A program made the position numbers and the translations under genes. Shown piece after piece: positions 5,351 to 37,125 of a stretch of DNA of 37,125 nt; positions within the stretch are counted from its first letter, which is position 1, and every line of letters begins with the position of its first letter. Where the stretch lies: positions 1 to 37,125 of the forward strand of contig JAILFA010000093.1 of the NCBI GenBank assembly GCA_024687125.1, given 5' to 3'. Below the pieces are notes generated by a model. That model searched no databases. It was not told where the DNA came from and saw only the letters and a list, made by a program, of their open reading frames with translations. The DNA is from Lachnospiraceae bacterium. GTDB lineage: Bacteria > Bacillota > Clostridia > Lachnospirales > Lachnospiraceae.

Positions 5351-6418
5351 TCAGTTGCGGATAAGCTTCTTTTCCAGGGAAGCATAATCGTAACTGCGCT
5401 CCTCCCTGAAGTTATGTATGCGCCCGTTCTGCGCTGCGTTCTGTGCAGGGGCACTGACCCGCGTGCGCGCTTTTTTCTGCTCTTCGTAGGCTTCGTCGAG
5501 GGCACGGATATCAGCCTTTTTGGTGACACCTGCCTCGTGCCATTTGGTGAGGATGCCGTCGCAGTACTCCAGACGCCTCTTCTGTGTGGCGAGGACAGTG
5601 CGCGAGCAGGCCTCACGGATAACATCGATAGAAAGACGGTATTCGGACATCCAGCGCTCGATAAAGGCAGCCTCCGTGGCTGTCGGCAGGTTGGAGAGTC
5701 CGAGCAGATCCATGACCTCGTAGATACGTTTGTCGTATTTGAAGGATCCCTGCTTTGCCTGCGAGGGTGTCTCGTAGCCGCTTTCCTGCCAGCGTACGGC
5801 GACACGTTCTATGTAGCGGAAATCCCGTTTGTCCCGCTCCACGCAGTACTGCAGAAGATAGTCGATGAGCTCGTCGGAAAACCGGAGCGTATCGTGGATA
5901 TAGAGAAGAGAATGGACATCCGCCTCACTCAGCGGCCGTTTGAGATATCTCTCCGCGATGAACATCAGCTGCGAGCAGTCTTCCGGTTCCGCGGCAGGCG
6001 CAGCATTCACAGGAGCAGCGGCGCGGCGCGGCTTGGAGGGAACCGGCTCCTCCGCGGGAGCGGGCGTCTCAGCGGCCGGAAGAGAGGCCACGTGGATCTC
6101 ATCATGTGCCCGGCCGGCGAGATCCTCCAGATGGATGCCGGTGAGTTTGCGCGATCTGTCGTACTCCATGGAAACGATCCCGCGCTTTTCCCAGAATTTC
6201 AGAGCCCGCGTGACATCTTTTTCCGTGAGATTAAAACGGTCGGCGAGATCCGAAAGGCTCGTCGGCAGATCGGCGCGCATCATACGCAGCAGATACAGAT
6301 AGATCTTGAGCTGCGCGTCATTGGCCTCACTCATATATTCATCGATAAAGATATTGGAGACAGCGGTAGTATCCGCCTCGACTCCGGATTCTCTGTTGAT
6401 CGAAACACGTCCCATCAT
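5351..6418 (-). CDS. dnaD: DnaD-domain primosome protein
   Basis: 355 residues. The N-terminal winged-helix DnaD_N-like domain (MGRVSINRES to about 100: TSLSDLADRFNLTEKDVTRALKFWEKRGIV) is followed by an Ala/Pro linker and two C-terminal DnaB_2/DnaD domains, each ending in the YxxxIxxxW signature (YIERVAVRW and YCDGILTKW). In Bacillus-type replication DnaD remodels origin DNA and recruits helicase with DnaI. The frame stays open upstream to 6622, but a TGCTATAAT promoter at 6458-6450 and a GGGGG site at 6434-6430 put the real start at the ATG-ATG pair 6418/6415. It leads a transcript with the helicase loader and prs. Two DnaB_2 domains rather than one is the usual clostridial form. Confidence 0.9.
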   Translation of the reverse strand: MMGRVSINRESGVEADTTAVSNIFIDEYMSEANDAQLKIYLYLLRMMRADLPTSLSDLADRFNLTEKDVTRALKFWEKRGIVSMEYDRSRKLTGIHLEDLAGRAHDEIHVASLPAAETPAPAEEPVPSKPRRAAAPVNAAPAAEPEDCSQLMFIAERYLKRPLSEADVHSLLYIHDTLRFSDELIDYLLQYCVERDKRDFRYIERVAVRWQESGYETPSQAKQGSFKYDKRIYEVMDLLGLSNLPTATEAAFIERWMSEYRLSIDVIREACSRTVLATQKRRLEYCDGILTKWHEAGVTKKADIRALDEAYEEQKKARTRVSAPAQNAAQNGRIHNFREERSYDYASLEKKLIRN

Positions 6419-33524: not shown

Positions 33525-34016
33525 GTGAGTGAACAGCAGATGAAACGAAGGACCATACTGATGGTCGGTATCGGCGCCGCGGCGCTCGTATGTCTTTTTG
33601 CTGTCGGGATGGCACATGAAAAGCTGCAGAGCAGCGCCGCTTACGAGGAAGCACCGGCCGTGATGGAGACCTATGAGATCAAAAGGACCACAACGGCCTC
33701 CGGCGATGAAGAGACGACAGACGTTAAAGAAGCGGATGTGAAGGAAGCGGATACGAAGGAAGAGGAGAAGCCCTCGGAGAAGAAGGAAGAAAAGGCGGAT
33801 CCGGCCGACATTATCAAGGAGGCGGAGAGCGCCCCTCCTGTACTCAGAGAGGAAAAGTCAAAGTACGAGGATGAGGCGGCAGCAGCCGCTGAGGCCGCGC
33901 AGGAAGCGGCTGAAAAGGCCAAAGAAGCCGAGGCGCAGAAAAAGAAGGCGCAGACGGCAAAGAAGAATGTGAATCAGGATGCAGGCTGTATCGGAGATGA
34001 CGCCCTTGTCTGGTGA
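33525..34016 (+). CDS. Small membrane-anchored Lys/Glu/Ala-rich protein
   Basis: 163 residues, family not recognised. One transmembrane helix (about 9-28, ILMVGIGAAALVCLFAVG) is followed by an entirely low-complexity, charged exterior: a Thr/Glu region, repeats of VKEADVKEADTKEEEK type, and a coiled-coil-like block EAAAAAEAAQEAAEKAKEAEAQKKKAQ. GTG start with GGGGG seven bases ahead. The end overlaps the acyltransferase gene. It could be a scaffold or spacer in the wall. Bias like this gives spurious similarity, so no function is offered. Confidence 0.75.
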   Translation: MSEQQMKRRTILMVGIGAAALVCLFAVGMAHEKLQSSAAYEEAPAVMETYEIKRTTTASGDEETTDVKEADVKEADTKEEEKPSEKKEEKADPADIIKEAESAPPVLREEKSKYEDEAAAAAEAAQEAAEKAKEAEAQKKKAQTAKKNVNQDAGCIGDDALVW

Positions 34017-35061
34017 GAAGAACAACTGGAATACATCGTTTTCCCTGCTGCGGGTGATCGCCTGTCTCGGCATCGTGCTCCTGCATACGGCAAATGTGTC
34101 GGAGCTCCTGTACCCGGAGGTGTCCGCACGAGTCTGTCCGGGACTTGCGATGGGTATCGTCTACAGTATGATGTGGGCGGTTCCCTGTTTTCTGATGATC
34201 TCCGGTGCGCTTCTGCTCGATCCGGACAGGGAGATCACGCCTGAACGGCTCCGTGACCGCTACATCCGGCGGATAGCGCTTGCGCTGCTGATCTGCTGCG
34301 TTCTGTTCTCTCTGATTGACACGCTGATGAACGGGGATGCGTTTTCGCTGCTGTTCATCGCGGACGGCGTCTACCGGCTGTTCACGGGCGGCAGCTGGGC
34401 GCACCTCTGGTATCTCTACCTGCTGCTCGGGCTCTACCTGCTGCTCCCGTTCTACCGTCTGATCACAAAGCACAGCAGTGACGGGCTTCTGAAATATCTT
34501 CTCGTTCTGTACGCCGTCTTTCTCTCGGTCCTCCCGGTGTTTGGCGCCTTCGGTATCGATATCGCTTTTACGATCCAGACAGCGGGGATCTATCCGTTCT
34601 ACTTTTTCGTGGGATACGCACTGAACTCCGGGAAGCTGGAGTTCAGCACACGGACACTGGCCGCGATGGCGATCGGCGGGACCGTGATCATCTGGGTAAT
34701 GTGCGCCCTTTCCGGCTGGCAGGAATTCCCAATGGGGGCGGAGTTTCAGGAGATCCTCGGCAGCTATGCTTCTCCTGCCGTGGCGCTGCAGAGCGTCGGT
34801 ATCTTCGGACTCGTCCGGAGGATCCCGCAGGAGAAGATCAAAGAGAAATGGGCCGAAAGCATTCGCTGGATCGACGCCTGCACCTTTGGCGCCTATCTGA
34901 TCCACATGGCCTTCTTAAGGCTCTTTCTGCGTTATCTGTCCTGGGATCTTTTCGCGATCGGCGAGTGGTCGATCTTTGTCTTCGCGGTGGGGACCTTTCT
35001 GCTGTCCCTGCTCATCACGCAGCTTCTCGGGGCGATCAAGCCTCTGCGGGCTGTTCTGTAG
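33979..35061 (+). CDS. Acyltransferase family 3 membrane protein
   Basis: 360 residues, ten or so transmembrane helices. The start FSLLRVIACLGIVLLHTANV carries the family R-x-x-A-C-x-x-V-L-L-H motif with the catalytic His, and a GGSWAHLWYLYLLLGLYLLLPF segment is typical of OatA/WecH-like O-acetyltransferases. Near the end, CTFGAYLIHMAFLR also fits. It probably transfers acetyl groups to a wall or surface sugar. The start is uncertain: ATG at 33979 or 33997, both inside the previous gene, neither with a well-spaced ribosome site; coupling is likely. Last gene of the envelope operon, followed within 20 bp by repeats. Confidence 0.9.
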   Translation: MQAVSEMTPLSGEKNNWNTSFSLLRVIACLGIVLLHTANVSELLYPEVSARVCPGLAMGIVYSMMWAVPCFLMISGALLLDPDREITPERLRDRYIRRIALALLICCVLFSLIDTLMNGDAFSLLFIADGVYRLFTGGSWAHLWYLYLLLGLYLLLPFYRLITKHSSDGLLKYLLVLYAVFLSVLPVFGAFGIDIAFTIQTAGIYPFYFFVGYALNSGKLEFSTRTLAAMAIGGTVIIWVMCALSGWQEFPMGAEFQEILGSYASPAVALQSVGIFGLVRRIPQEKIKEKWAESIRWIDACTFGAYLIHMAFLRLFLRYLSWDLFAIGEWSIFVFAVGTFLLSLLITQLLGAIKPLRAVL

Positions 35062-35080
35062 GACGGACGGGGGGTCGACG

Positions 35081-35160
35081 GGTTTTGGCTGGTTTTCGGC
35101 TGTTCTTGCCTGCTTTCGGCAATTCTCGGCGGTTTTCGCCAGCTTTCGGCAGTTCTAAAA
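35081..35160. repeat. 10-bp-period repeat after the acyltransferase gene
   Basis: Eight consecutive decamers starting every 10 bp from 35081 follow a GGTTTTCGGC-like pattern: GGTTTTGGCT, GGTTTTCGGC, TGTTCTTGCC, TGCTTTCGGC, AATTCTCGGC, GGTTTTCGCC, AGCTTTCGGC and a decayed AGTTCTAAAA. The period is close to one helical turn. It is non-coding and leads directly into the 86-bp array. Confidence 0.7.
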
Positions 35161-35178
35161 GGTTGACAGATTGACAAT

Positions 35179-35651
35179 GGTACATGAAAAGCGTAGCAGG
35201 CCGCGATTTCATGTACCGTAAAGGCCCAGTTTTGAATCCGCGTGGCAGGGAAATGAGTGGCGAGGGTACATGAAAAGCAGAGCAAGACACGGTTTCATGT
35301 ACCGTAAAGGCCTTGTTTTGTATCCGCGCAGCAGGAAAATGCGTGGCGTGGGTACATGAAAAGCAGAGCAAGCCGCGGTTTCATGTACCGTAAAGGCCTT
35401 GCTTTGTATCCGCGCAGCAGGAAAATGCGTGGCGTGGGTACATGAAAAGCAAAGCAGGACGCGATTTTATGTACCGTAAAGGCCCTGTTTTGGATCCGCG
35501 CGGCAGGAAAATGGGTGGTGAGGGTACATGAAAAGCAGAGCAAGCCGCGGTTTCGTGTACTGTAAAGGCTCTGTTTTGTGCCCGTGTGGCGAGGAAATGA
35601 GGGATGTGGGTACATGAAAAGCAAAGCAAGCCGCAGCTTCATGTACCGTAG
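35179..35651. repeat. Array of 86-bp hairpin repeats, five full copies and one partial
   Basis: Units begin at 35179, 35265, 35351, 35437, 35523 and 35609, an exact 86-bp period. Each starts GGTACATGAAA, then a 17-nt loop with GCCGCGG-like centre, then TTTCATGTACC, giving an 11-bp stem, followed by GTAAAGGCC and a less conserved half with CCGCG and GGAAAATG. The sixth copy stops after the hairpin. In units 2 and 3 the second half can also pair (CCGCGCA/TGCGTGG). As 86 is not a multiple of 3, the frames that cross it are not coding repeats. It lies between two convergent genes. Confidence 0.92.
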
Positions 35652-35660
35652 ATGAAATTT

Positions 35661-36485
35661 CTACATTGACGTGAGTTCTTCACAGAGGCGATTGATAATG
35701 GCGCTGTCCAGAGGATGATCGGCACTTTCAAAGGTGAAGATCACATCGCGCCCCGGGATATAGCCGTTTTTGATATAGGCGGCCTGCCTTCTCATAAAAC
35801 TGTCCAGATATGCCGGATCGCTCATCATTCCGTTGTGTTCGAGATATACCACACGATGTGAGTTTACAAGCAGGATCCGGAAATCCGGGTGTATCCGGCC
35901 AAAACCTTCCAGATATAGCGGATATTCATATTGGTAGGGGATGCCGAAACTGTGGAATCTGTTTGCCAGGATCAATTCCGACTTTGATCGCACATGCTCG
36001 CCGAGATCTGTGATGAATTCCGGCGCTGTTTCAGTGTCAGAAAAACTCTTATGCTCGTACTCCTCGGAAAGCCAGTTCTGCACAAACATTTCGTCTGTGA
36101 TCGCGCGCGGTGTCACGTAAGCTTTGCGCAGGTCGTTCATACCGCTGTAGATCTCATCAAGATGCTGTGATTTCATCTGCCGCAGAAGCGGTTCCAGGAA
36201 ATGGTACTCCTGAGAGGCGCATTCCAGGATCTTTTCATCATAGTCTTTCTGCGCGAGTCTGCTGATCAGATCTGCGTTTTTCTTACTGATGTAATCACCG
36301 AGGCGATCGCTCTTTGATCTGCGCCAGAAATACTGTGTGCGGCCATTGTTGTGACCTGCGCGCAGACGACCGTCCGGCGCCTGATAAAGCGCTTTCCGGG
36401 TTTCTGCGATCAGCCGCTTAAGTTGATCGCGGCGCGATTCCAGCATTGCCTGTAGGTTACGGGTTCCGTCTGTGATGGTGTACAT
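35661..36485 (-). CDS. PD-(D/E)XK nuclease-like protein
   Basis: 274 residues. The N-terminal half is helical and basic (MLESRRDQLKRLIAETRK; RRSKSDRLGDYISKKN). The C-terminal half has the nuclease core of a PD-(D/E)XK fold: Glu170 in RSKSE, Asp201 in HPDF and Glu216 in VYLEHNGMM, with LANRFHSFGIPYQYEYPL between as the usual alpha-beta connection. The lysine of the classical ExK is replaced (EHN), as in the related clostridial proteins with EHxG. AGGAGG lies seven bases before the ATG at 36485; an open frame upstream to 36647 has no support. The stop abuts the 86-bp array and six 17-bp repeats lie about 100 bp upstream. DNA cleavage is inferred; role unknown. Confidence 0.78.
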   Translation of the reverse strand: MYTITDGTRNLQAMLESRRDQLKRLIAETRKALYQAPDGRLRAGHNNGRTQYFWRRSKSDRLGDYISKKNADLISRLAQKDYDEKILECASQEYHFLEPLLRQMKSQHLDEIYSGMNDLRKAYVTPRAITDEMFVQNWLSEEYEHKSFSDTETAPEFITDLGEHVRSKSELILANRFHSFGIPYQYEYPLYLEGFGRIHPDFRILLVNSHRVVYLEHNGMMSDPAYLDSFMRRQAAYIKNGYIPGRDVIFTFESADHPLDSAIINRLCEELTSM

Positions 36486-36589
36486 GATCTGCCTCCTATA
36501 GATGAAATAGATGTGAAACATGAATAAGCATACAGGAAAGGATCCGACCGCAGATGCGGATGAGAAGGTCCTGAGATATGCAGAATAGT

Positions 36590-36691
36590 GATGCATACAG
36601 AGCCGAGATGCATACAGAGCAGTGACGTATACAGAGTCGAGATGCATACAGAGCAGTGATGCATTCAGAGTGTTGATGCGTTCAGAGTATC
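36590..36691. repeat. Six 17-bp tandem repeats upstream of the nuclease gene
   Basis: Units start at 36590, 36607, 36624, 36641, 36658 and 36675, consensus GATGCATACAGAGCAGT, with the first two thirds best conserved. A degenerate 15-bp copy may precede at 36575. The spacing is constant and the core ATGCAT is palindromic. They resemble iterons or serial operator sites and sit within the 455-bp gap 36486-36940, of which the rest shows no feature except the possible relic at 36703. Confidence 0.85.
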
Positions 36692-36702
36692 ATAAGACGT
36701 TA

Positions 36703-36940: not shown

Positions 36941-37125
36941 TTACACCGCAAGCGCTTCATTTTGTGAGATTTCATCCATCTTGTATTTCCAGTGATAGAT
37001 GACGGGTTCTTCATTTATCTCAGTGAAGTATTGATATATCCGGGCTTCCAGTTCTTCTTTAGAATCAACGCGGATTCCACGGAGCATCTGCTTTGTCATC
37101 TTGCTGAAGAAGCTTTCGATCATGT
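36941..37125 (-). CDS. IS630-type transposase, C-terminal part (runs off the window)
   Basis: The last 61 codons of a DDE transposase. MIESFFSKMTKQML, RGIRVDSKEELEARIYQYF and EINEEPVIYHWKYK are the typical end of IS630-family transposases. The partial codon before Met ends in AC, which allows Asn, giving the N-M-I-E motif whose Glu is the third catalytic acid. The gene enters from beyond 37125 in the minus direction and stops at 36941. The terminal inverted repeat of the element could not be placed, so whether it is complete is unknown. Its presence marks this end of the window as a mobile or accessory region. Confidence 0.82.
   Translation of the reverse strand, partial: MIESFFSKMTKQMLRGIRVDSKEELEARIYQYFTEINEEPVIYHWKYKMDEISQNEALAV

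Follow-up and report, generated by a model that had tools for sequence, protein, structure and literature searches.

Tandem repeats phased to the DNA helix often lie beside genes of a predicted nuclease family in Lachnospiraceae

We describe a tandem array of palindromic units, and the gene beside it, in a Lachnospiraceae bacterium (assembly GCA_024687125.1, here genome G000). The window is the whole stretch that was analysed: positions 1–37,125 of contig JAILFA010000093.1, a length of 37,125 bp. The array occupies positions 35179–35650 of the plus strand. Ten base pairs separate it from the stop codon of the gene at 35661–36485 (minus strand), which encodes a predicted nuclease of 274 residues, a member of a multicopy family without a name. 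Across the taxonomic family, genes of this kind often adjoin tandem repeats. The repeat periods mostly fall at whole helical turns, and the repeat sequences track the relatedness of the encoded proteins. Hence, the window array probably serves as a cognate DNA-binding array for the product of the adjacent gene, a predicted nuclease that would represent a new family.

Read letter by letter, the array comprises five complete 86 bp units, followed by a sixth that breaks off after 42 bp. A unit consists of a 39 nt inverted repeat and then a 47 bp linker. The hairpins start at positions 35179, 35265, 35351, 35437, 35523 and 35609, in steps of exactly 86 bp, and have 11 bp arms (GGTACATGAAA/TTTCATGTACC) on either side of a 17 nt centre. 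Hairpin 1 (35179–35217, plus strand) matches the covariance models R1 and R2 described below, and the five further hairpins are in the same register. The linker of unit 1 (35218–35264, plus strand) contains a partly conserved CCGCG..GG..AAA block that, by alignment, is common to arrays of a second genome, G015. A preliminary description of the window had reported six hairpins at this exact spacing, with an 11 bp stem and a constant 5′ arm, and we confirmed each of these features. The four 3′ arm substitutions are also as described, at column 32 of unit 4, columns 33 and 39 of unit 5 and column 29 of unit 6. Given the variability of the columns, the invariant 5′ arm is unexpected (P = 0.008, shuffling of variable columns); for both arms taken together the same test gave no significant conservation (P = 0.065). 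At up to two mismatches, GGTACATGAAA occurs 18 times in the window, compared with 5.9 expected, and none of 100 shuffles reached 18. Linkers included, the five full units are 77–97% identical in pairwise comparisons. CRISPR arrays combine near-identical repeats with unrelated spacers, whereas here the linkers repeat too. The earlier dismissal of CRISPR is thus upheld.

The structure model of the window protein (pLDDT 93.8) resembles a Vsr/TnsA-type PD-(D/E)XK nuclease. Residues E170, D201, E216 and H217 are invariant in 53 alignment rows. As in Vsr/TnsA-like enzymes, conserved acidic residues are found in the predicted fold, judging from these rows and a structure alignment of the model. Taken together, the model and the invariant residues predict a nuclease of this type, which may actively cleave DNA. 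The N-terminus is a coiled coil of about 105 residues. No Pfam family was found, at its cut-off, for eight members of the nuclease family. The added coiled coil, the repeat arrays and the lack of a Pfam family distinguish it from Vsr-like nucleases such as Vsr, TnsA and the homing endonuclease I-Bth0305I. Of 250 genomes sampled across the taxonomic family, 82 contain this nuclease family, which is present in a third of the sampled genera. Searches of IMG/VR gave eight loci, matching only query residues 159–274 or less. The full-length family was not found in a plasmid collection, where the four matching records reached a query coverage of 50% at most. The C-terminal domain is similar to the PADLOC candidate PDC-S68 (6e-24 over residues 158–271). 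However, PDC-S68 models are about 1200 residues long, and the protein described here stands alone.

The association with tandem repeats was measured at 88 nuclease loci. These were the best matches of 25 genus genomes, all 30 copies (E ≤ 1e-10) of four genomes, the best copy from each of 29 other genera and four G000 copies. Tandem Repeats Finder (TRF) detected an array with a period near 53, 64, 75, 85, 95 or 106 bp within 600 bp of the gene at 46 of the 88 loci (9/25, 13/30, 21/29 and 3/4 in the respective samples). By comparison, about 1.6% would be expected from the G000 background of 12 arrays of this kind in 1.12 Mb. The arrays were upstream of the gene at 43 loci and downstream at five, two of these being flanked on both sides; within 1500 bp, both sides were occupied at 5 of 88 loci. 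Because TRF misses diverged arrays, and because the periods had been chosen, we repeated the analysis by scanning every lag between 30 and 120 bp against shuffles, in the 500 bp upstream and downstream of each gene. The scan was positive in 60 of 84 upstream regions and 21 of 85 downstream regions (P = 1e-9, upstream versus downstream). In G000 at large the scan was positive in 19 of 277 regions, and at 39 control loci in 11 of 117; the control loci were not random, being taken from DNA, hairpin-model and acyltransferase matches (9/114 without locus L028; 11/117 with L028 included and a new random seed). On one side or the other, 67 of the 88 loci were positive, 57 of them with a lag at a whole number of turns.

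All four nuclease copies of G000 have a repeat alongside. The arrays on contigs C121, C127 and C141 each belong to a different unit family, and the copy on C11 has a diverged 62 bp repeat upstream. In the 1.12 Mb of G000 examined, both the 53 bp family (C121, C125, C135 and C2) and the 65 bp family (C127, C9, C28 and C122) comprise four arrays, of which one adjoins a nuclease gene and three lie elsewhere. By eye, the unit arms of the 53 and 65 bp arrays (loci L176, L164, L203, L222 and L230) are often of two half-site types, TGACCGC/TGACTCA and CCCTAT/CCCGAT, so that the palindromes look asymmetric in a conserved manner.

Repeat periods cluster near 53, 64, 75, 85 and 95 bp. This ladder was first noticed in 37 hairpin arrays that had been picked by their inverted repeats and not by period. 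Three duplicate arrays were dropped for this test. Collapsing by genome and period gave 24 arrays, for which R was 0.83 at 10.75 bp, a value reached by none of 5000 uniform draws. For comparison, R was 0.42 in a set of 26 further tandem arrays that included many open reading frames. The 42 loci without a TRF array gave the same picture. A hidden repeat was present in 17 of 39 testable upstream regions, and all 17 lags, counting one of 42 bp, were on the ladder, whose bins cover about half of the possible lags. For hidden downstream repeats, four of six lags were on the ladder. Across all loci, 50 of 54 upstream lags between 45 and 110 bp lay within 2 bp of a multiple of 10.65, with R 0.82 at 10.5. 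Excluding the common 53 bp class left 22 lags of 57–100 bp, for which R was 0.79. Among the 60 upstream positives, the lags off the ladder were 34 (the window), 36 (twice), 37, 45, 48, 59 and 104 bp. Those in steps of three bases (36, 45 and 48) may be coding repeats.

Similarity between nucleases was correlated with similarity between units read on the strand of the gene (r = 0.20, P = 0.0005, 43 loci). On the opposite strand there was no correlation at the same loci (r = 0.00, P = 0.51). For example, the arrays of G000 C121 and G109 C16, from different genera, both have the unit ATGACCGCAAATCA.., and the similarity of their proteins ranks 17th of 903 pairs. Period also followed the nuclease tree, which contained 86 proteins, two fragments (L251 and L255) being excluded. 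For the 46 labelled rows, separating 53 bp from longer periods required six changes, compared with 14.6 after shuffling (0/500 as low). With all period classes the numbers were 13 and 17.0 (1/500). Among themselves, the classes of at least 64 bp did not cluster on this tree.

Beyond the window, the same hairpin occurs in G000 as a solo copy (C94:2750–2788). In G015, of the same genus, arrays of the 39 nt hairpin are found on contigs C36, C65, C94, C97 (two), C102, C34, C60 and C96, with steps of 75 bp on C36 and of 86 bp, once 85 bp, on the others. The C65 and C94 arrays run into contig ends and may be one array. Contigs C34 and C60 are variants of one locus, 95–98% identical beside the array, and differ by one 86 bp unit; thus, array copy number changes. 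With both pairs counted once, the arrays occupy at least seven places. The 86 bp units of G000 and G015 align end to end, including the GGTAC arms and the linker block. When 79 genus genomes were searched with R2, any match at E ≤ 0.2 occurred in 10 and strong matches only in G000 and G015; in every genome these long-range searches scored only the top 16 candidates at family level or the top 84 at genus level, and weak members may have escaped them. Weak single matches in other genomes (R1 at E ≤ 1, R2 at E ≤ 0.2) were taken as chance or terminators, and one of them, L028, sits in a 64 bp hairpin array with other letters. A direct DNA search of the other 60 genomes gave, beyond the G000 array and solo copy, only two 17 bp matches. 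By eye, the G015 arrays at C97:7192–7660, C97:19451–19747 (L136) and C65:1–511 (L112) are bounded on one side by a terminator-like hairpin or contig end and on the other by the start of a gene; the N-termini encoded by these genes look like signal peptides and resemble one another.

The preliminary description had proposed selection on an RNA read from the plus strand, on the ground that substitutions in the stems mostly give G-U wobbles there. This is literally true of three of the four changes. However, every transition in a Watson–Crick pair reads as G-T on one of the strands and as A-C on its complement, so that at least three of four has a chance of 5/16. Two covariance models, R1 and R2, were built, and base pairing was tallied in 42 hairpins from the window's family. 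On the strand in question 423 of 462 positions were Watson–Crick, 20 were A-C, 9 were G-T and 10 were other. Outside the window, there were 19 A-C and 6 G-T. The solo copy has two changes, both A-C on the equivalent strand. Strand preference thus failed, and the proposed plus-strand selection was abandoned. Conversely, the palindrome itself is kept, with 93.5% of positions paired compared with 85.3% in shuffles. Selection on pairing is supported in relatives, where paired changes exceed shuffles (29 cells with a double change, compared with 10.1), as does the covariation score; the broken pairing in relatives that the preliminary description had named as a refutation is thus not what is seen. 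Pairs changed on both sides numbered four, no more than in shuffles (3.8), and RNAalifold found no second conserved helix in the linker. Dyad symmetry without strand preference suits DNA recognition at least as well as RNA, and whole-turn spacing across many different unit sequences points to DNA.

We therefore think it rather unlikely that the units act as RNA, as hairpins in a transcript leader or trailer that are processed or bound by protein. The covarying stems of the window's hairpin family are compatible with such a role. So is the position of upstream arrays, which often end near the start codon (within 200 bp at 29 of 88 loci) and leave little room for a promoter, and so is a sense-strand purine excess shared by array and gene (0.60 and 0.60, compared with 0.56 in the 300 bp downstream). 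However, RNA with single-stranded linkers gives no obvious cause for spacing by whole turns, G-U is not above A-C and the window array lies beyond the stop codon of the gene. No Rfam family reached its gathering score in the window, in line with the earlier remark that no known RNA family came to mind. A protein-binding array, which the preliminary description had listed beside a processed repeat RNA and a multi-hairpin 3′ end, is the option favoured by the evidence.

Which protein might bind is a separate matter. It is unlikely to be some other protein, such as a repressor or a nucleoid protein, with control over the nuclease and further genes. Phasing and palindromes would suit any dimeric DNA-binding protein, and hairpin arrays also occur away from the nuclease in G000 and G015, but a common host protein would not explain why unit sequence varies by copy and tracks nuclease relationship. 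The same co-variation, the excess of upstream over downstream repeats and the helical ladder make it improbable that the arrays are a neutral satellite, produced by local duplication in permissive intergenic DNA and adjacent to the nuclease only incidentally, even though G015 C34 and C60 differ by a single unit and G000 carries arrays elsewhere. Least probable are tandem bidirectional terminators. The window array does lie between convergent genes, and single GGTAC-capped hairpins with a T run occur beside tRNA-Arg genes in other taxa. However, a terminator scan placed four sites in 34900–36700 and none in the array, the T run is inside the stem, and arrays beside the nuclease family are mostly upstream of the start. 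The GC-rich stem and following T run of an intrinsic terminator are not found in any array unit. A pattern scan of named genomes returned 10 stretches, several of them GGTAC-capped hairpins with a T run; these terminator-like hairpins (GGTACxxGAAAAGC..GCTTTTCxxGTACC) were treated as convergent and not as relatives. At four of seven checked loci, in distant taxa (L056, L062, L064 and L065), the capped hairpin adjoins a tRNA-Arg (CCG) gene. No tRNA was found in the window.

If the array is the binding site of the adjacent nuclease, each 86 bp unit would supply two inverted half-sites. With units a whole number of helix turns apart, neighbouring copies of the enzyme would all dock on the same face of the DNA. 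Binding may repress or position the nuclease, a form of autoregulation. If the enzyme cuts within the repeats, units could be gained and lost as a result and similar arrays could arise at other sites, a parallel to the proposed role of RAYT enzymes in spreading REP palindromes. The case is weaker for the window, where the array is downstream of the gene, as it is at L240 and L268 (85–86 bp). These are three of the four TRF-detected arrays of 84–86 bp (duplicate loci L095, L097, L103, L105 and L267 dropped), a placement unlike that of the shorter classes. In addition, G015 has window-type arrays without a detected nuclease. A broader proposal is more tentative, and we hold it as a possibility that falls short of even chances: a new class of chromosomal nuclease-array element, in which a coiled-coil nuclease forms a filament on palindromes along one face, each clade sets its own period (5 to 9 turns), and cutting and repair expand and disperse the arrays. 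It would be a PD-(D/E)XK counterpart of REP-RAYT.

Palindromic repeats between genes have long been puzzling. Among the enzymes dedicated to them, the best known, the RAYTs, are HUH transposases. Here, a protein family unrelated to RAYTs appears to follow the same logic, and it leaves a physical signature, in that the repeat lengths come in whole helical turns. If true, this would give a function to a multicopy gene of many Lachnospiraceae and a cause to their repeat arrays; it might also provide a spacing-sensitive DNA-binding enzyme. As described in PMC2817692, REP/BIME-RAYT (TnpA-REP) systems likewise place extragenic palindromes beside the gene for a DNA-cutting enzyme, with like repeats elsewhere in the genome. 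The same paper reports that RAYT enzymes and REP palindromes co-vary, and co-variation is found here in both the similarity correlation and the nuclease tree. The differences are threefold. The RAYT is a Y1/HUH tyrosine transposase, whereas the present enzyme is a predicted PD-(D/E)XK protein with no Pfam family for eight members. In our case the repeats are tandem and direct, recur at whole helical turns and mostly occupy a single flank of the gene (both sides at 2/88 loci within 600 bp). Finally, REP sequences end in a GTAG tag, according to PMC3733652, and the window arms end GGTAC...GTACC. No description of the nuclease-array association was found in the literature searched, most subscription journals being outside its reach. 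Neither the enzyme, flank and tag features of REP-RAYT nor the repeat and spacer features of CRISPR fit the element. If binding holds, its logic would be akin to that of REP-RAYT.

In plasmid iterons and parC-type centromeres, helically phased direct repeats immediately precede the gene whose product binds them. Direct repeats at whole helical turns are also found here, and binding by the product of the adjacent gene is predicted. Conversely, our units are 53–95 bp long and contain palindromes, no initiator or ParR domain was found, and the full-length family is missing from the plasmid collection searched.

The array fills most of the gap between the nuclease gene and a convergent acyltransferase gene (Acyl_transf_3; 33979–35061, plus strand), which we place outside the module. 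Homologues of the acyltransferase at E ≤ 1e-40 occur in 6 of 78 other genus genomes. A link between acyltransferase and array was dropped, because the acyltransferase loci L076–L081 had no hairpin array by TRF. A T-rich 20/30 bp repeat (TTTTCGGC..) lies between the acyltransferase stop codon and the array, at 35091–35156. Upstream of the nuclease start, positions 36581–36689 (strand not assigned) contain 17/34 bp repeats with GATGCATACAGAGCAGT-like 17 bp units, off the helical ladder. A separate 54 bp hairpin family (GTAGCAGGC..GCCTGCTAC) is found at locus L154 (G015 C10), at 128–447 and 5747–5946, near both ends of a 6 kb contig. At the contig end of the window, 36953–37123 of the minus strand resembles the C-terminal end of IS630-type transposases, with an E value of 1e-4 that is below the curated cut-off.
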